64,000 bases of DNA from Paracamarosporium sp. OC-R06-R3 (lineage: Eukaryota; Ascomycota; Dothideomycetes; Pleosporales; Didymosphaeriaceae), in assembly GCA_019828545.1 (NCBI GenBank), contig JACVRA010000113.1, positions 186,001 through 250,000 on the forward strand, in the 5' to 3' direction. Of this stretch, positions 32,134 through 58,580 are shown piece by piece. The notes beneath the pieces were generated by a model. It was not told the origin of the DNA. It saw only the letters and a program-made list of their open reading frames with translations, and made no database searches. Position numbers and translations under genes: made by a program. Within the stretch, counting starts at the first letter, position 1; each line of letters opens with the position of its first letter.

Positions 32134-33407
32134 ATGTCGCCCATTGCTGTTCACCGCAAGTACTCCATCGCGACGATGGGGGCTGATGGTATCGGTCCCG
32201 AAGTTGTCGATGCAAGCGTACAGGTAATGAAGAAGTTGGTAGAGTTGGACGGCTCCTTCGAGCTCGTATTTGAGAACTTCGACTGGAGTACCGATACATT
32301 CAAGAAAACGGGAAAATACATCCCAGATGGGGGACTTGATGCGCTCAAGAAACATGATGCAATACTTTTCGGTGCTGTGGGCGCCCCTGGTGAGTCCGAC
32401 GACAGCTAAAATTATCAATTCCGCTTATGTCCATTCAGACGTACCCGACCACATTTCCCTTTGGGGTCTACGATTAGCCATCTGCCAACCATTCCAGCAA
32501 TACGCCAATGTCCGTCCTACAAAGATCTTCCGCGGGACGTCATCCCCTCTGCGGAAAGCCGAACATGGCGATTTGGACTGGGTTATCATCCGTGAGAACA
32601 GTGAAGGAGAGTATGCAGGCCAAGGTGGGCGATCACATCGCGGGCAACCGTGGGAGACAGCAACCGAAGTAGCCATTTTCTCAAGACACGGTGTTGAGCG
32701 CATCATGCGGTTTGCATTCGAATCTGCTCAAAAGAGACCGAGGAAGCTACTCACAGTCGTCACTAAGAGCAACGCACAAAGGAACGGCATGGTGCTTTGG
32801 GACGAGGTGGCTGCTGAGGTTGCAAAGGACTTCCCGGATGTTAAGTGGGACAAGATGCTTGTGGATGCCATGACTTGTCGCATGGTTCTTGATCCGAAGT
32901 CATTAGATACCATAGTTGCTACCAATCTCGTGAGTGCTTTCGCCTCGATGCATTTTATCGCTGCTTTCGCATACTGACAACAAGCAGCACGCCGATATTC
33001 TTTCCGACCTCGCTGCTGCGCTTGCTGGCTCGATCGGCATCGCACCCACTAGCAACCTCGACCCTACGCGACAGAATCCCAGGTAAGATTCCCTGCATAC
33101 CTCCAATAGGATTTATAGACTGATTATTCTCAACAGTATGTTCGAGCCTATACACGGCTCTGCCTTTGATATCACAGGGAAAGGCGTTGCAAACCCAGTC
33201 GCAACATTCTGGACAGCTTCCGAGATGTTGACCTGGCTAGGTGAAGAAGAAGCGGCTAAGAAGATGATGGATGCAGTCGAGGCGGTAACAGAACGGGGTA
33301 TCGCCACCCGCGACCTCGGTGGCTCGTCTGGGACAAAAGAAGTCACTGATGCCGTGTGTCTGGAATTGGAAAGGGTGTATGGCGCGGTATCAGCCAAGAA
33401 GGCTTGA
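32134..33407 (+). CDS. Tartrate dehydrogenase/decarboxylase (isocitrate/isopropylmalate dehydrogenase family)
   Basis: Exons 32134-32389, 32439-32929, 32988-33082 and 33137-33407 give 370 residues with all phases agreeing. Family landmarks in order: GADGIGPEVV at the N-terminus, LFGAVGAP, the WVIIRENSEGEYAGQGG loop, the catalytic-region KSNAQRNGMVLW (Lys), the metal-binding Asp region VDAMTCRMVLDP and HADILSDLAAALAGSIGIAP, and MFEPIHGSAFDITGKGVANP. The ENSEGEYAGQGG form and the short length match tartrate/malate-type members rather than isopropylmalate dehydrogenase. The bacterial enzyme oxidises tartrate with NAD and decarboxylates meso-tartrate to D-glycerate (established). Divergent from the TDA10-like kinase. 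Confidence 0.9.
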
Positions 33408-40643: not shown

Positions 40644-41919
40644 ATGAGCCCAAAGACAATGTTTGCGCAACAGTATGTTGATTCCATGGCGCATAACACC
40701 ATATCTAACCGATGTCAGATACGATGCGCGCGACAACAAACTCCACTTGAACAGAGTCCCAATACCAGAGCCCCACGAGCACGAACTGCTCATCAAGATC
40801 AAGAATGCCTCCCTCTGCCATTCCGACGTCATGTTGTTTCAACCCAATGATCAAGGTCTCATTCTTGGCAAGAACCCGGTTACTATTGGGCACGAGGCAA
40901 CTGGAACTGTTGTTGGTCGTGGGTCAGGTGAGGCTGCAAACAAGTTCAAGGAAGGTGACGATGTTGGGTTTCTATGCGCCGTAGACTGCTGCTTCACTTG
41001 TTCCAACTGCAGAAATGTCCACAACTCGTGGTGTATTACGGGCAACACAAAGATGCAAGGTTTCACTCTGGATGGGTACTTCCAAGAATACGCCGTTGTT
41101 GATGCGCGGGCTGCCATGGTCCTGCCAGAAGGACGTACGTAGTATCGTGAAGGGAGGCGAGAGCTGAAAGCCGAGCTAACATGCCTACAGTCGATGTCAA
41201 GACGGCGGCTCCGCTTTTCTGTGCTGGTGTCACAGCCTTTCACGGAATTCAAGACTGCGAACTCAATCCAGGACAATGGGTGGCTATAATAGGGTGCGGT
41301 GGCCTAGGACACTTGGGCATCCAATATGCGAAGTAAGTGGTATCGAGTTGGCCATTGTCTTATGTTAACGCTTCACAGAGCCATGGGGCTTAAGGTCATC
41401 GGACTAGACATTGCCGACCAGGCTCTCGAAGAAGCAAATTCTTGTGGTGCGGACCACGTGTTCAATTCGATCAAGGACAAGGACTGGAAAGAAAGGGTGA
41501 TTGAAATAACGGGTGGGGGTGTTGATGCGGCGGTGAACTTCACTGCGTCTAAGAAGTCATACGACGACTGTCCAGCTATCATCAAACCTGGACAGGGCCT
41601 TCTGATGGTGGTCGGCATCCCTCAAGAGCCATTGCAACTCAATGCATTGGACATTGCCCTGGGTCGGTTTCGCGTCAAAGGCTCCAACAACGGAAGTAAG
41701 CGCATCTTTAGTAAAGCGGAAGCATTCAAACGCAGCTGACGATCAATAGCTTGTTACAACATGCGACCGGCTATCGAGTTCAGCGCGAAACACAACATCA
41801 AGCCGCACCAGACGCTTTTCCAGTTGGACGAACTGCCGAAGATGATCGAATTGATGAATTCACACAAGGCACAGGGTCGCATGGGCGTCGTTTTCGAGGG
41901 AGGGAAGAGCAACCTGTAG
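40644..41919 (+). CDS. Zinc-dependent alcohol dehydrogenase
   Basis: Exons 40644-40672, 40719-41134, 41191-41332, 41379-41695 and 41750-41919 give 357 residues with all phases agreeing. The first intron (46 nt, GTATGT...CTAAC...CAG) removes a stretch that otherwise hides the true start, and splicing gives the typical MSPKTMFAQQYDA head. Catalytic-zinc residues are visible: Cys43 in ASLCHSD and His68-Glu69 in GHEATG. The structural-zinc set is Cys101, 104, 107 and 115. NAD(P) binding is shown by IGCGGLGHLGIQYAK. The architecture is that of tetrameric fungal ADHs of the medium-chain family. The natural alcohol is not determined, and the weak substrate-loop match leaves other secondary alcohols possible. 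Confidence 0.92.
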
Positions 41920-42227: not shown

Positions 42228-45200
42228 ATGGGCTCCGATGATTTGATCGACTTCGAGGTGATCGAGAACCAAAAGGAGAACATCCAGGCTCTACCAAGCG
42301 GGCGCTCCGCCAAAGCGCTCGCACAACTCTACACGCCGCCGCTTTCTTCCGCTACGGGCAAGACTCCTTCCCCGTCCCAGATACAGGATGCACATTTCGA
42401 GACGCGCCAGGAGTTCGAGAAGGAGCTCGAGGCAATCGACGAGTCCGACGACCCTCTCGATGTTTACGACCGCTACGTAAAGTGGACACTAGACGCATAC
42501 CCTTCCGCGCAAAACACATCACAGTCACAGCTCTGCCCTCTTCTAGAGCGTGCAACAAAAGCCTTCCAGTCGTCGTCGCACTACAAAAACGATCCGCGCT
42601 ACCTGAAGCTGTGGCTGCACTACATCCGCCTCTTTTCGGATACACCACGAGAGACATTTGCATACCTCGCACGACACAACATCGGTGATAAGCTCGCTCT
42701 GTATTATGAAGAATTTGCGGCCTGGCTGGAGACGGCTGGACGCTGGACGCAAGCTGAAGAGGTGTACAGCATGGGAATTGACAAGGAGGCACGTCCCGTC
42801 GAGCGCCTTGTTCGCAAATATGGCGAATTTCAACATCGATTCGAAAGCCGACCACAGCAGGCTGCCGAACCTACCAGCCCTGCGCTCCCGACCGTGCGAC
42901 CTGCGCTCGCGGCAAAGCTCGACCCTTTCGCGACCGGACCGGCCGATCCGCAAGCACAAAGTCGGGCACAAATGGGAGGAACTTCTTCAAAATCTGGAAG
43001 AGCAAAGCTCGCCATCTTTGCAGACGGTGACGAGCCACCAAAACCCAGTTCTAGCGGAAGTTCGAAAGGGTGGGACAGCATTGGGTCTTTAGCAGATCGA
43101 AAGAAAGAGAACACGCCTGAGGCACGGTCATGGGTTGGAGAGACACTGAAGGTCGGAAAGAAGAACACTGGTGTCCAGAAGATGATGATCTTCAAGGACG
43201 AGGTAAGTCGTACAAGTCCGCCATAGCCCTATATATATTTACGAGCACAGGACTAACTGGTATGGCTTTTGCCTTTTGTGTATTGTAGACTACACTGGTA
43301 CCTAATGATGAAGATGCAATGCCTCATCCAGTTCACTCAGAAAAACCGACCGTGAATCCAAAAACCGGAAATGTAGAAGTTCGTTTCGCAAACTTTCAAT
43401 TAATATATCCTAGGCGTGGTGCAGAGTGCTCTTTCGAAGAACTGCGAGCGAGACATCGCGGATGGCTGGACATGGACTGGGCGGCTATCCGGAAAAACAA
43501 TCATGGGGACGCTAACACTGCAAATCTAGAGAGTTTAGAGGAAACTTCTACTCCACAGGAAATTCCTCCGGTCTCCCATGAGCAGGAGAAGGCACACGAG
43601 GAGGTTCTCGTCCATGTGGATCCGGAGCCAGCTTCAGAAGCAGTACCTCCATCACTAGCAGAGGATGAGAAGAAGAAGAACACCAGACTTCATATTCACA
43701 TGGATGCAGAGCCAGCACCCCTGCTGGAAGAAGAGCAGAAGGAGGTTGGCATGAAACTTCAGATACATGTCGATGAAGAAGTTGCGCCACAGTCTTGCTC
43801 TCCTGCGCAGAAGGTACAGAAGAAGAATAAATTATTTGCTGTCCTTGCAGATGAAGAGTCTGGATCGCAAGCAACGCCATTGGCACAAAGAGAACCTAAG
43901 AGAGAAGGTTCCAAAACCCAGACTGTTCCCTTAAAAGGCATTGAAGACGAGATGATCTTGAACGATGAGAACACGCCTCCCTCACAGCTGGAGGTTGAAA
44001 AAGCGAAGGCTACTAAGAAGGCTAGACGAGAAGAACGTTCTAATCGAACCCGAAAAATCAAGGTAATGGAGGTCAAAGAAATTCGCAATGAAACACAGAC
44101 AAGTAAGTAATAGGCGCAATGACGCTATAAATTCCTCAGCACTAATATAACAAAGTTCAAACAAATCTGGATTCTCCCACAGGCCGCAAAATCCGACGTA
44201 AAAAGCTGGGTAAAGAAGCTACGATGACCTTGCATACCAAGGAAGCCATGGAAGAAATCTATGACATCTTTAATGAACCTTTGAAGGAGGCTACGGAGAC
44301 AACTACTGATGTAGAGAGTGAAGAAGAAACGAGTGACGGCGAAGATGATGACGACTACACCAGCGCTGGTGAGAGTACAGGCACTGGTCACCTGTCTTGC
44401 GCCACAAGCGAATTTGGTGACGAAACCACTGCCGCGGACTTCACCCTCGGCACGACAATCGGGGACGATGAGGTAGAAGAGAGCGAGGCGGATGAAACTG
44501 ATACCAAGAGCGTATCAGCATGGTCCGAATTTACCGAAAGCAAACACGTACCAAAGGAGCACAGACAATCTGGATCAGAGGATGAAGGCGAGGATTCAGA
44601 GGACGATTCTTTCAGTGAAGTGTCACATTCCCACGACCCTATCGATGATCAACCTGAGAACCTTGTTACACCCACGTCCCCAGAACATCCTTCTCATTCG
44701 CTACCAACGCGTTACGTGCCTGTGCCTCCTGATAACTACAATGCGCCTACGGGACCATACCGCGACCCTGCGATCGCCGCTAATAATCGTCTACCATTTA
44801 TGACACCAATCGTGGAGAAGACTGAGTCGTCACTAGGGATTGCAACAGCCCATGCTCAAAAGGATTATTTCTCGGCAAAAACCCCGTCACGTTCCAAAGG
44901 TACCCCAGCTGTCATTGAAGACGACGACGAGACATGGAGCAGTCCTTTCCAAGAAGCGCTTGTGCCATCAGTTGATGGTCCTGGAAAAGTTACCAAGCTT
45001 GCTCTGCGAGAGACAAAACCAGTGAAAGAGCCTCTGGCTGAGTCAAAACCGAAAGCTCTCGCCACGAAAGATGTTAGCACCATAGACGCGAAGCCAAAAG
45101 GTCCTATCATCCATGACGCACGGTGTAATCCTGTTGGCGAGGCAATCCGAGAAACAATCCTCCGAGATATACAGCCCCCATTAGATTCGTATGATGGATA

Positions 45201-46891: not shown

Positions 46892-48684
46892 ATGTCTGTA
46901 GAAGTAATCAACTCTCTCCTGAGCTTCCAGCCGGATGCTCCAGAGCTACAGAAGAGGCGCGATTACGACAGGGAAGCCCGCGAATTCGTCAAGCAAATCA
47001 GCGGTTTGGCCCCGGCGACCCTTCTCAAGGGTGCAGACTCACCTCAAGATCCCCTGGACGTACGTATTGATAAGTCTTCTTGATTTACGTGTCTAACTAT
47101 TCTAGGTGCTAAACCCCACAACCAATGCAATAGCATACGCTTATACCCTCCGACACCGCATCGAAGCAGCCACCAAGAAGAACACAGACCAGCTTCAACC
47201 CGGGGGCTCATTATGGAACAAATTAGTTCTATTTCTAGAGTCGTTTGACCCCGTTCAAATGCGCTACGCCGGAGAACAGTGGAAGAAGCTGGTAGACTAT
47301 GTCGAGTTGATTGCGCGAAACGAAGGAGCGGTACGTTTGAGGCACCGAGGGCTAGGGAAACCACAGCTGCTAATGCATAACAGCCTGCTCTTGCTATCAG
47401 TCCAATCCGCTCCGCAATGTTTCGCCTCGACCCCACCACAGGCACCTTCACCTCGACTCACCTCCGCTTCCTCCAGCTATGCATGGAGACTCGGTCCTAC
47501 AAGGCTGCACTGCCTGTCCTCGACAACTATATACACAGCTTGCCTACAGCTATTGCGAAGGAAACGTTGGAAGAGCTGGAATATTCTGTGGTGGCTGCGG
47601 ACAGCGTTACAAGTGGAGAATTCATCAACTCAAGGTCAGGCCACACAGCTAAGGTGAGCGTGACGGATCTACAAGAGTACTATGTCCTGGGGGCGATGGC
47701 CTATCTTGGAGAGAGGCAGGTCAAAAATGCTCTGCATTTCTTGGAGCATGTATTGGTAACTCCGGCGAACAATGCGTTTAATGGCTTGATGCTCGAAGCG
47801 TACAAGAAATGGGTATTGATTAGCTGTTTGGCGGACAAGTCGGTAAGTCATGGAGCCATGGAGCCATGGCAATTGACGCGAAACTCAAACTCTGGGAGGA
47901 GCTATTGGAGCAGTTTCGCCTGACAATCCACAGTACAAGACCCCTCCTCGGACAATGAGCAGTATCGCAGTGAAGAACTGTAGGAGTGCTGCCAAAGCGT
48001 ACGAGGCGCTTGCAGAAGCTTTCCAACAACTGAACAACCTGCCGAAACTCAAAGCACAGGTAAACGTAGGCAGAGAGATCTGGGCCGAGGTAGGCAAACC
48101 CGGTGCGAAACACTTGATGCTGGATGTCCAAGTTTCGATTCGGTGCTCGAGATGAAACATGTTTAGACGGTTTCGACACATGGCGCTTACACAATGTACA
48201 GGATGGCAACACAGGCTTAGTCGAGGAGCTCTTGGAACACCAGAATCGAGCCTATCTCTCTCGCCTATCACGGACCTTCTCGGCCATTCCGGTGTCAAAC
48301 ATTGCGGGCAGCGTGGGCAGCAGCGTGGACCAAGTCACGACGTTTGTGGACTCGCTGATCCAGCAGGGACTCTTAAACGCGCGGCTCGACAGGTCGGGAG
48401 CAGGCGCGGTTCTGCGTTTCTACCTCGACCCCACCCAAGGGCCGCTTGCCAAGACGGAGAGGCAGCAGCAGCAGGCGCTGATGGAGCAGACGCAGCGGAC
48501 GAATGCGCTGGCGGAGCAGGTGAAGGATGCGGACTACCGGCTGAGCATCACGAAGGAGTACGTGGAGTTTGTCAGGCGGCAGAAGAAGAAGAACGGGGCA
48601 GGGGGCGGCGGGGGCGGCGATGCCATGGAGGTTGGGTTCGACGACGGCGACATGGACGAGGACATGATGGGCGACATGCGCTGA
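46892..48684 (+). CDS. COP9 signalosome subunit 3 (CSN3)
   Basis: Exons 46892-47059, 47106-47330, 47384-47842, 47934-48089 and 48202-48684 give 496 residues, all joins in phase 0. The N-terminal two thirds are helical repeats. Typical CSN3 features are FRLDPTTGTFTSTHLRFLQLC and the LEHVLVTP-like strand near the middle. A PCI/winged-helix part spans about residues 330-430 (LSRTFSAIPVSNIA). The C-terminus is a coiled coil followed by a Gly run and an acidic Asp/Met tail. The COP9 signalosome removes Nedd8 from cullin ubiquitin ligases and, in filamentous fungi, controls development and light response. CSN3 is a non-catalytic scaffold. The last two introns (91 and 112 nt) are longer than the others. 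Confidence 0.88.
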
Positions 48685-55259: not shown

Positions 55260-56473
55260 GATAGGAGTATTTAAGTAGGTGATGTGAACTTGGCGATGCT
55301 GGCCGATGGTATGGTTTGTGGTGTAGGCTGTTGTAGAGAAGGGTGAAGGGTGGATAAGAGGACAAGGCATGGAGCGGGTAATATATATCCTTCTTCAAGG
55401 ACAGATAGGGCAGGCGCGCGGTGATTATCATGTCACATGAAGACCTTCCTGCCAGGTAGCTCGCAGTAAGTAGCTCTTTCCAAACACATAGAGTGCAGTA
55501 GAATAGGGTCAGAGGGAGGCACGTTTCACTAGCGTGAGCTTCATATTCTATCCGTTCAAGCGCGAAAGAAAGAATATCAGGGTTATACCTCAGATCACGA
55601 TCTCGGTGTGTCATCTGTGCAACAGTGACGTGGACATCGAAACTCTCACGGCAAGATAAATACCTAGTCAAGTGGCAAGGTATCGTCTCATTGACTTCTC
55701 AATATCCCACGTTGCATTAACTAAGGTACACAGGATCCACTGCTTACGGTACAGTTATATCTATTGGTAAATGGGTTTCCCAATCACTCTTTGCTATCTC
55801 TGAATATATACCACCAATGTATACTATTCGTTCCACTCCGTCACCCTCCGTTTTCAATTCTGCCATTCTCGTCATCTTCTCTCATTTCAAGCACATTATG
55901 CATTGATTGCTTTTCGAAATTCGAATCGAAGTCAGCGTGATCGACTCACAGCGGCGCCATCTCATGCACATGTTAGGACTGTCATTGACGAATGTGCAAT
56001 CACTTGAGAATAATAGGCATGCGAATACGTTCGTCTGTTGTTAAATCCATCCCTTCTGACGCTAGACCTTGCACATTGCTTCCTTGTTAAGTAAGCGCGA
56101 ACTAGGAATGCTCAATTCCTACAATTGACCGTGTGCTAGTCGCCTTTTCCGAGCGGATGAATCATGCTCATTCGACATTCGCCGGCAATATCCATAATTG
56201 ATATAGAAGCGTACCTAGCAGAATATTTCATAGCCCACGAAATACCCATTCTGTTTGTAAAGATGTGTTCTTTCGGTTTGCACCAGCATGACGCGCCCGA
56301 CCAGAGACCCACCCTTTGAATGTTTCGGGCGCCTATTCGTCAGTCTGCCCACAACCCCACCACAAAAATCGTTACAATGCACACACCTTTTTGCCGCCCA
56401 ACAGTCTAGTAAAAAATCTAGCTATATATATTTTGTCCAAGATAAATTACGTCATCAACCACAAGCTCAAGAA
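55260..56473. other. Intergenic interval upstream of secreted-protein and tRNA genes
   Basis: This 1.2 kb has no coding features I can support. It contains the secreted-protein promoter on one side and the tRNA upstream region on the other. Confidence 0.5.
56422..56434 (+). promoter_or_regulatory. TATA-like element upstream of the tRNA gene
   Basis: A CTATATATATTTT run ends 39 bp before the tRNA 5' end. Upstream TATA boxes support tRNA transcription in some fungi such as fission yeast (established). Its use here is inference. Confidence 0.45.
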
Positions 56474-56502
56474 AGCTGAGTGGCGCAGCGGAAGCGCGCC
56501 GG

Positions 56503-56553
56503 GTACGTCTCTTCACCATCACCCCTTCACACTCACCCACTAATAAATAGTAG
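56503..56553 (+). other. Intron 1 of the initiator tRNA gene (51 nt)
   Basis: It begins GTACGT, has a CACTAAT branch-like site whose likely branch A (56543) is 10 nt before the end, and ends in TAG. These signals match the protein-gene introns of this window. It splits the anticodon stem. Confidence 0.8.
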
Positions 56554-56569
56554 GCTCATAACCCGGAGG

Positions 56570-56618
56570 GTACGTCATTACCAGATCATATACATCAACC
56601 TCAGACTAATCCAAACAG
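56570..56618 (+). other. Intron 2 of the initiator tRNA gene (49 nt)
   Basis: It begins GTACGT, has a GACTAAT branch-like site whose likely branch A (56609) is 9 nt before the end, and ends in ACAG. It splits the variable loop. Confidence 0.8.
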
Positions 56619-56645
56619 ACCTACGATCGAAACGTAGCTCAGCTA

Positions 56646-58580
56646 TGAGATTTCTTTTTGACTCTTTTTGTTGACCTGGAAATGTACGAGTTCGAGTCCG
56701 CCACCAGCGGTATGTTTTTGTTGTTTGCCAGACATGATTTCACTTTGTTATAACTCTAGCCTGATCGGCCTACTGAATATCGTATGAATTCTTGAAGCAC
56801 ATAAGTTGCTCACTCTCTTGGTCCATTTCATAAGCTACGCCATGTTTGGATGCTAACTTGCTCTACCTGGTTGCACCTTTCGCAAAGTAACGCAGCTCAA
56901 GAGCATTTGCTAACCATGCAGTGTGCAAGGAAAATAATAGCCTCCTCTTCCTGGAAATACCGCGAGCGAACTACACACCAATGCATCATTTTGGCACTTG
57001 TCTAGTAGTGCAACGCAAGCTTGAGCTGTATTTCTTTATATAAAAACTTTGTGTCTTGACAAAGGCATTGATCAGCTAGACATTTACGTTCATACAACAA
57101 CTTGCTGAAAACGAAGATAACGATCGGTGCTATTGTGCTGATTCAGGTCCGTGGCTGGCCTTTTATGGTCTGTGATTTTTCGGCATTGACTGTAAACCAT
57201 CTTGCCTTTGAGAGGAGATGTGTCAAAGAAGACGTTCTTGATTCCACGGAGTCCAAGGAGCGCTGGTGCAATTAACTTATGAGTACTCGTCATTTGGAAT
57301 ACCGTTCTCTTCTTCTCGGTCTGGTCCTGTCGTTGTGTACGGTTAGCGACGTCAACGTGTAGTTGAACCTTGTGAAGAGGATGTCCCTGTCGACTATGAA
57401 ACATATGGTTTCATTACTATGAGGATTGGTCACATGGGCACCTTTGCGCGTGGGGTGAAGACGGTTGATCGTCATCGTCAGCTTATCCTCTGCGGACAGT
57501 ATTATTTGTCTCGCATTCAGATGAATGACTAGTTTCTGGACGTGCTGTTGAAATCTTGCGAGAGCCGCATCACTCTTTACCACCTCGAACAATGTGGTTT
57601 GATCTGCTCGGTCACAGATGGTCAGTCATACAAGGAATATCATGTCTTGCACAACCTGTTTGGTAGCAGACATAACTCGCAAGAAAATAAGACTTTGTAG
57701 AGCTAGCTATATAAACCAGTATACAAGTATCAGAGCACCACGTTTACTATTATAGATGTCTGTGATACCGCAGTCTGGCGAGTTCGGTTCACTTGCCTTG
57801 GAAAAGGTTGTTATTATAGTATCAGTGACGTGGTGTGAAAAAGCAGCGGGAATACGACTTCTATAATTGACAAGTGACAGTTGCACATAGCGAGCTTTGC
57901 AGTTGAAACGCGCGTGAATGCTCGATTGCGAGTAAAGAGGTTCTTGAGAAGCCCTTTTAATGTTAGAAAACCTAATCCTTAACCAAGAATCGATCAGGCG
58001 ACCGTTCATTAACGAGTTACAATAAATCGATCACATACTATTGTCTATTGCTGTGTGCTCGGTTTCGGTTACAAAAACGACGTGAATAAAGCGTAGCCAG
58101 AAGTTCAGTTGAGGTGTTCTATTGGCAAAAAGGATATGAAGAAGAGCGAGCAACTAGATGTAGAAGAGTTGATTTTAGCATATCCACGGCCTAGAGATTC
58201 TCGTGGGCTTCAACGATAAGTCAGTCTTGCCAAGCGAGTTGAACTCGTGGAATAAAGAAGCGTAGTTGACCGGCGAGAACCAAAGTGGGTGATCTCAGAG
58301 ACACTATAGCTTGTTTGTAGAAAGTTTTTAGAGCAAGAGAGTTATTTGGCGAGGCGGGAGCGGAGGTGGGAGATGGTAAAGTGGATTGTTAGTATTAGGT
58401 GGCTACTGTCGTCATAAGGAGCGACTATGTATGACTACATTTTGTAGATAGAGATAGTCTGAAACACTTCTTACAATCGTAGACTCCGGAAGATGTACAC
58501 CTCGAAAGTGCAGCAAATTTCATTGAATAGTGGATAAACCAATGGCCATCCTGCACTCTGCTATTTCATTAGACTGGATG
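56646..58580. other. Gene-poor interval with a possible coding relic
   Basis: No gene can be called. On the minus strand about 57290-57592 is open for 100 codons without an early ATG, and a second frame (57090-57404) overlaps it. The first has amphipathic, protein-like composition (AALARFQQHVQKLVIHL), so it may be an exon of a small gene or a relic. At 56688-56712 a GAGTTCGAGTCC string resembles a tRNA B box, but no tRNA folds around it. Confidence 0.4.
56651..56669 (+). terminator. Pol III-type T-run terminator of the tRNA gene
   Basis: TTTCTTTTT at 56651-56659 and a second five-T run at 56665-56669 begin 5 nt after the tRNA 3' end. T runs are the Pol III termination signal. Confidence 0.7.

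Follow-up and report, generated by a model that had tools for sequence, protein, structure and literature searches.

The window, a stretch of 64,000 nucleotides, contains an initiator tRNA gene split by two introns at positions 56474–56645 of its forward strand, on which all features described here are located. Its three exons join to 72 nt. Exon 1 (56474–56502, 29 nt), whose sequence is the same in all three copies found in the genome, comprises the 5′ strand of the acceptor stem, the D arm and the first four bases of the anticodon stem (linear positions 1–29). Intron 1 (56503–56553, 51 nt) lies inside the anticodon stem, and intron 2 (56570–56618, 49 nt) lies in the variable loop. Exon 2 (56554–56569, 16 nt), placed between them, provides the last base of the stem strand, the anticodon loop CTCATAA, the 3′ strand of the stem and the start of the variable loop. 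The remainder of this loop, the T arm with the T loop ATCGAAA, the 3′ strand of the acceptor stem and the discriminator A are encoded by exon 3 (56619–56645, 27 nt). In standard numbering, by our own count and with position 17 absent, the introns occupy sites 30/31 (anticodon stem) and 46/47 (variable loop). Judged from sequence, the boundary of intron 1 is ambiguous by 1 nt (a repeated G), as is that of intron 2 in the window copy.

Both introns start with GTACGT; intron 1 ends with TAG and intron 2 with CAG. Each carries a branch-point-like CTAAT, at 56540–56544 in intron 1 (CTAAT in all three copies) and at 56606–56610 in intron 2 (CTAAT or CTAAC in the three copies). An earlier note on this DNA, made without database searches, had described an initiator tRNA gene divided at these coordinates by segments of 51 and 49 nt with the same start and ends, and this anatomy is confirmed. 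It had also placed CTAAT 9–10 nt from the intron ends; the motif is present, but the measured distances are 9 and 8 nt.

Several further elements accompany the exons. A TATA-like box (56423–56430) precedes the 5′ end of the tRNA by 51 nt, and the sequence TGGCGCAGCGG (56481–56491), which we take to be box A on the basis of its consensus, is intact within exon 1. Two elements presumably represent B boxes (consensus GWTCGANNC): an internal one, GATCGAAAC (56625–56633), in exon 3, and an extragenic one downstream of the gene, GTTCGAGTC (56690–56698). Between the tRNA end and the latter there is a T5 run (56655–56659), likely a Pol III terminator, followed by a second T5 run at 56665–56669.

The joined 72-nt sequence was recognized by ARAGORN as tRNA-Met(CAT) with all arms paired. 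It carries A1-T72, A54, A60, three G-C pairs adjoining the anticodon loop and the CAT anticodon; the terminal pair, the two adenines and the three G-C pairs are features that we take to be marks of eukaryotic initiators. The clean initiator tRNA that had been predicted to result from joining is thus obtained. An excerpt of PMC3978253 also gives A54 as an initiator mark.

Neither ARAGORN nor Rfam recovers the window copy in its split form. At the settings used, ARAGORN reported no tRNA in the unjoined window, nor in the segment 56001–57200 when introns were allowed, and the window copy had no Rfam family match at the gathering cut-off. With introns allowed, ARAGORN named the copies on contigs C38 and C55 Leu and Pyl.

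Split copies and other initiator-like genes in the genome

The genome is represented by a 43.09-Mb draft assembly of 337 contigs. A search of the whole assembly with the joined 72-nt sequence (E ≤ 10) revealed three loci, on contigs C11 (the window copy), C38 and C55, all interrupted at the same two places. The joined tRNAs are identical at 72 of 72 positions. Intron lengths (first/second) are 51/49 nt on C11, 54/50 nt on C38 and 53/50 nt on C55. All six introns start with GTACGT, end with AG, lack TTTT and contain CTAAT or CTAAC ending 8–11 nt before the intron end. A tRNA pseudogene was rejected on the basis of the complete identity of the three copies, the pairing of all stems and the lack of decay in the exons. 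Gene conversion, however, could explain the identity of the exons just as selection could.

The interiors of the introns (without the first six and last three bases, optimally aligned) show 59–71% identity between copies for intron 1 and 55–63% for intron 2, compared with 51–55% for shuffled sequences. Since the intron 2 interiors are close to the shuffle background and the signals are fixed, the splice signals have been kept amid diverged sequence. One of the boundaries differs between copies. In the C38 gene exon 2 is one base longer, ending in GGAGGA (GGAGGA|GTACGT) instead of GGAGG, and exon 3 is one base shorter, beginning with CCTACG (CAG|CCTACG) instead of ACCTACG. Intron 2 of this copy therefore lies 1 nt further 3′, is still bounded by GT and AG, and leaves the joined tRNA unchanged. 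Under spliceosomal recognition, boundaries would be expected to follow GT-AG rather than the position in the tRNA, as is seen here.

The assembly was also screened for intact initiator genes, whose presence, according to the earlier note, would together with a lack of RNA evidence for joined exons have spoken against a working split gene. The initiator anticodon arm GGGCYCATAACCC has no match in the whole assembly. A D-arm pattern allowing at most one mismatch gave 45 matches, all of which were checked: the three split copies directly and the remainder with ARAGORN (including C327:244257), some of them also by eye. No intact initiator gene was found among them. ARAGORN cannot recognize split genes of this type, so that the check excludes intact initiators among the 45 matches but not every split gene.

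An initiator-like Met(CAT) tRNA gene with an insert of about 15 nt at the canonical site 37/38 was distinguished at C282:515110-515196, 0.3 kb from the contig end. Uncut, it is named Pyl by ARAGORN; its own join gives Met. The joined sequence is 72 nt long, its stems are paired, and it has A1-T72 and A54, with A29-T41 instead of the third G-C pair and G60 instead of A60. It is identical to the split copies at 59 of 72 positions (13 differ), and a genome search with this gene matches only itself. Because of this C282 gene with its 37/38-type insert, the initiator supply need not depend solely on the split genes: C282 could be a second initiator, an elongator or a relic, and the three split genes could be auxiliary.

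A stronger form of this reading would make the three loci dead or non-essential, with C282, or a copy absent from the assembly, as the source of the real initiator. The paired 72-nt product of C282, with A1-T72 and A54, is in its favor, as are the draft state of the assembly and an incomplete tRNA census (in the RF00005 search 63 of 1284 candidates were scored, and known genes, e.g. that on C282, are missed). However, exons identical at three places, surrounding introns that have diverged with their signals kept, would not be expected of dead copies; the C282 tRNA differs from the split copies in the third G-C pair and A60, and the intact anticodon arm is nowhere in the assembly. We regard this explanation as very unlikely. 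The claim of a working initiator gene whose introns are of the spliceosomal type and lie at non-canonical sites is instead strongly supported, by three paralogues with identical exons, diverged introns and invariant signals, by the boundary shift that tracks GT-AG, and by the results on endonuclease-type structures given below.

Intron type and candidate routes of removal

As a sample of the mRNA introns of this genome, five introns in protein-coding genes of the window were delimited by comparison with homologous proteins. Three are in a tartrate dehydrogenase gene (32390–32438, 32930–32987 and 33083–33136, starting with GTGAGT, GTGAGT and GTAAGA, respectively) and two in BUB1 (at 43203, 86 nt, and 44103, 53 nt, both starting with GTAAGT). 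They are 49–86 nt long and all start with GTRAG. Four of the five contain CTRAY, located 9, 12, 31 and 9 nt from the intron end, i.e. within 9–12 nt in three cases. The tRNA introns match the mRNA introns of the window in length and in branch-point spacing. None of the five homology-guided introns starts with GTACGT. Two genes of the window point to the Pleosporales, probably to the Didymosphaeriaceae, the family of both reference species: the glycerate kinase is 86% identical to that of Didymosphaeria variabile and 85% to that of Paraphaeosphaeria sporulosa, and a piece of the tartrate dehydrogenase is 94% identical to the D. variabile protein over 74% of the query.

A strict motif, GTACGT-N26..42-CTAAY-N5..9-HAG, written after the tRNA introns had been seen, occurs six times on the two strands of the window, compared with an average of 0.03 over 60 order-1 Markov simulations, and a chance motif was therefore rejected. 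Two of the six occurrences are the tRNA introns. Splicing of those at 47060, 47331 and 59010 (reverse strand) leaves an open joined frame, although at 47331 the frame is open without splicing as well; the occurrence at 41135 gives no open joined frame. The introns at 47060 and 47331 lie in what we take to be a CSN3-like gene. GTACGT introns thus seem to be an ordinary class in this genome, to which the tRNA introns would belong by sequence, and GTACGT...CTAAY...AG may possibly define a uniform intron class. By every sequence criterion for a spliceosomal intron that was tested, the introns of the tRNA genes look spliceosomal.

The introns of nuclear tRNAs are regarded as the preserve of the tRNA endonuclease and its partner ligase. 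The split copies could accordingly lose their introns through the tRNA splicing endonuclease (Sen complex) and the ligase acting at non-canonical sites, in which case the GT-AG appearance of these introns would be incidental. The pathway is probably active in this organism: two proteins of the genome match the tRNA endonuclease family (PF01974), and ARAGORN called loop introns of 6–33 nt in 26 of 36 other unique nuclear tRNA loci, although some of the isotype names assigned were clearly wrong. Moreover, an excerpt of PMC4090602 lists non-canonical tRNA introns in archaea, at sites such as 45/46 and 30/31, the latter being an endonuclease-type site there and the location of intron 1 here, and others in nucleomorphs and Cyanidioschyzon.

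The split copies themselves fit such a route poorly. Their introns lie in the anticodon stem and variable loop and not at the canonical position 37/38. At the GT-AG register only 0–2 of the four core pairs of a strict bulge-helix-bulge (BHB) could be formed in any of the six introns (random mean 1.5), and slips of 1 nt gave no more than two of four. This test covered one strict geometry with 1-nt slips, and BHB introns were rejected on the ground that none of the six has a strict core helix. Endonuclease cleavage would also leave unexplained the fixed GTACGT, CTAAY and AG within diverged introns and the boundary that tracks GT-AG, and the length of the introns (49–54 nt) fits that of mRNA introns, not that of the 6–33-nt inserts of the other tRNAs. 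Removal by the Sen complex is therefore, in our assessment, highly improbable.

Promoter layout and proposed biogenesis

Beyond the first T-run of each split gene the sequence GTTCGANNC is present, at +24 (C55), +38 (C38) and +45 (C11) from the tRNA end. This downstream B box is a new element, absent from the earlier account of the locus. The split genes were compared in this respect with a set of 36 other unique nuclear tRNA loci (41 rows with five duplicates, the C282 gene included), none of which has GWTCGANNC within 150 nt downstream. The difference (3/3 versus 0/36) gives a Fisher p = 1.1e-4 for a motif that had been seen before the test; its background rate across the window is 0.0066 per 50 nt of each strand. 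Measured start to start, the internal B box is separated from box A by 147, 148 and 144 nt in the three copies (144 nt in the window, where it has been pushed away by the introns), and the downstream B box by 191, 206 and 209 nt (gaps of 180, 195 and 198 nt; 209 nt start to start in the window).

A TATA box at −47 to −54 occurs in all three split copies. It was rejected as a special trait of these genes, since TATAW is found within 80 nt upstream in 32 of the 36 other unique tRNA loci (37 of 41 rows).

An upstream TATA, box A and an extragenic box B past the terminator are also found in the Saccharomyces cerevisiae SNR6 gene, in which boxes A and B are 202 bp apart (PMC9136082, in the excerpt available). 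The split genes have this SNR6-type layout, their downstream B box lying some 200 bp away from box A, and the match in spacing is suggestive only, coming from three copies. Unlike SNR6, which encodes U6, they are tRNA genes and retain a second, internal B box within exon 3. Both full U6 genes of the present genome, C53:500458-500557 and C302:52088-52187 (reverse strand), have, like SNR6, a B box after the T-run, at +29 and +102, respectively.

A 5′-truncated U6 copy (C302:51797-51868, forward strand) was also observed in inverted orientation about 220 nt from the full U6 gene of this contig; it resembles a U6 pseudogene or a piece of an inverted duplication.

The tRNA exons might be contained mainly in Pol II transcripts that are spliced like mRNA before RNase P and tRNase Z trim them, with Pol III making a minor contribution. 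Such an origin would account both for access of the spliceosome and for the resemblance of the introns to those of mRNAs. However, the TATA boxes, box A, immediate T-runs and downstream B boxes, present in three of three copies, fit Pol III, so that predominant Pol II transcription appears unlikely. Use of Pol III and activity of the downstream B box are what this arrangement points to.

We consider it very probable that the three loci are functional Pol III genes encoding the cytosolic initiator tRNA, and that the two small GT-AG introns of each would be removed by the spliceosome. If so, TFIIIB on the TATA box, together with TFIIIC bound to box A and to the downstream B box, and perhaps to the internal one too, would drive transcription by Pol III, which would cross both TTTT-free introns and stop at the T-run. 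In the precursor the acceptor, D and T arms may already fold: in the predicted minimum-energy structures of the three precursors the acceptor stem, the D-arm helix and the T arm are formed, and the mature anticodon arm is absent. The spliceosome would recognize GUACGU, the CUAAY branch point and AG, both introns would leave as lariats, and the 16–17-nt middle exon with the anticodon would thereby be joined to its neighbors. RNase P, tRNase Z, CCA addition and base modification would then complete the tRNA. Spliceosomal removal and this order of processing are inferred from conservation and gene anatomy, and the making of this initiator tRNA probably requires the spliceosome.

Known systems and further tRNA genes

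Introns of the mRNA type are found in U6 genes of some other fungi besides fission yeast. The intron of fission-yeast U6 is spliceosomal and is thought to have come by reverse splicing (PMC10484740, citing Tani and Ohshima; excerpt). The split tRNA genes share with the U6 case a spliceosomal-type intron in a Pol III gene for an essential small RNA, for which an origin by reverse splicing has been proposed. In contrast, U6 is itself part of the spliceosome and its intron lies near catalytic bases, whereas the host here is a tRNA with two introns; unlike in fission yeast, moreover, both full U6 genes of the present genome are intronless.

Spliceosomal introns also occur in ascomycete nuclear rDNA (Cubero 2000; Bhattacharya 2000, as cited in excerpts of PMC11889510 and PMC8527467), and according to the latter excerpt rRNA spliceosomal introns are removed in lichens and in yeast. 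These are likewise short GT-AG introns in a structural RNA of Ascomycota that Pol II does not transcribe. They interrupt rRNA genes transcribed by Pol I, however, and not, as here, a tRNA with two introns in each of the three copies found.

More than one intron per tRNA, at sites different from 37/38, is described for nuclear or nucleomorph tRNAs of Cyanidioschyzon merolae and Guillardia theta (excerpts of PMC4090602 and PMC3978253). The C. merolae introns are of the BHB/endonuclease type and those of Guillardia are very short (3–24 nt), in contrast to the introns of 49–54 nt with mRNA splice signals and no strict BHB core found here. No spliceosomal intron in a nuclear tRNA appeared in the titles and abstract openings among the matches listed from the open-licence literature, and the word stem ‘spliceosom’ does not occur in the review PMC4090602.

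If true, a spliceosome-dependent tRNA would break the separation between the domains of the endonuclease and the spliceosome, and would provide a natural Pol III substrate for spliceosomal recognition. Recognition of a 16-nt exon and folding of the tRNA would become one problem, and splicing would be linked to translation initiation in a fungus. It would also explain why initiator genes are missed or misnamed by tRNA finders, as by ARAGORN and Rfam here, and would open a way into the question of how spliceosomal introns reach genes not made by Pol II. We further propose, with even chances of being right or wrong, that in this lineage nearly all standard initiator tRNA comes from Pol III genes with SNR6-like promoters and is spliced twice by the spliceosome, which would make the supply of the start tRNA, and with it translation initiation, directly dependent on the capacity for splicing; introns may have been able to settle inside the tRNA gene because the extragenic B box relaxed the constraint on box spacing.

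Further tRNA genes of this or related kinds were sought in the genome with sequence patterns. The pattern CTAAYN{6,36}GTTCGANYC, corresponding to a spliceosomal intron just before the T loop, had 104 matches compared with 211 for the reversed control. Since there is no excess, this search gives no sign of a wider class, although introns elsewhere in a tRNA escape the pattern and the initiator need not be the only tRNA split in this way. The T-arm pattern GGWTCGAANCC had 149 matches versus 163 in the control, and 30 of these loci, when passed through ARAGORN, yielded only a Ser gene and organelle-like tRNAs. For the anticodon arm of elongator tRNA-Met there were 48 matches versus 35 in the control. 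No new tRNA-Met, and with it no elongator Met gene, was found among the 16 of these loci that were examined; the matches further include C282 and four Lys genes already known, of which one belongs to the examined loci. Two contigs, C26 (33 kb) and C300 (28 kb), are dense in organellar-looking tRNA genes.
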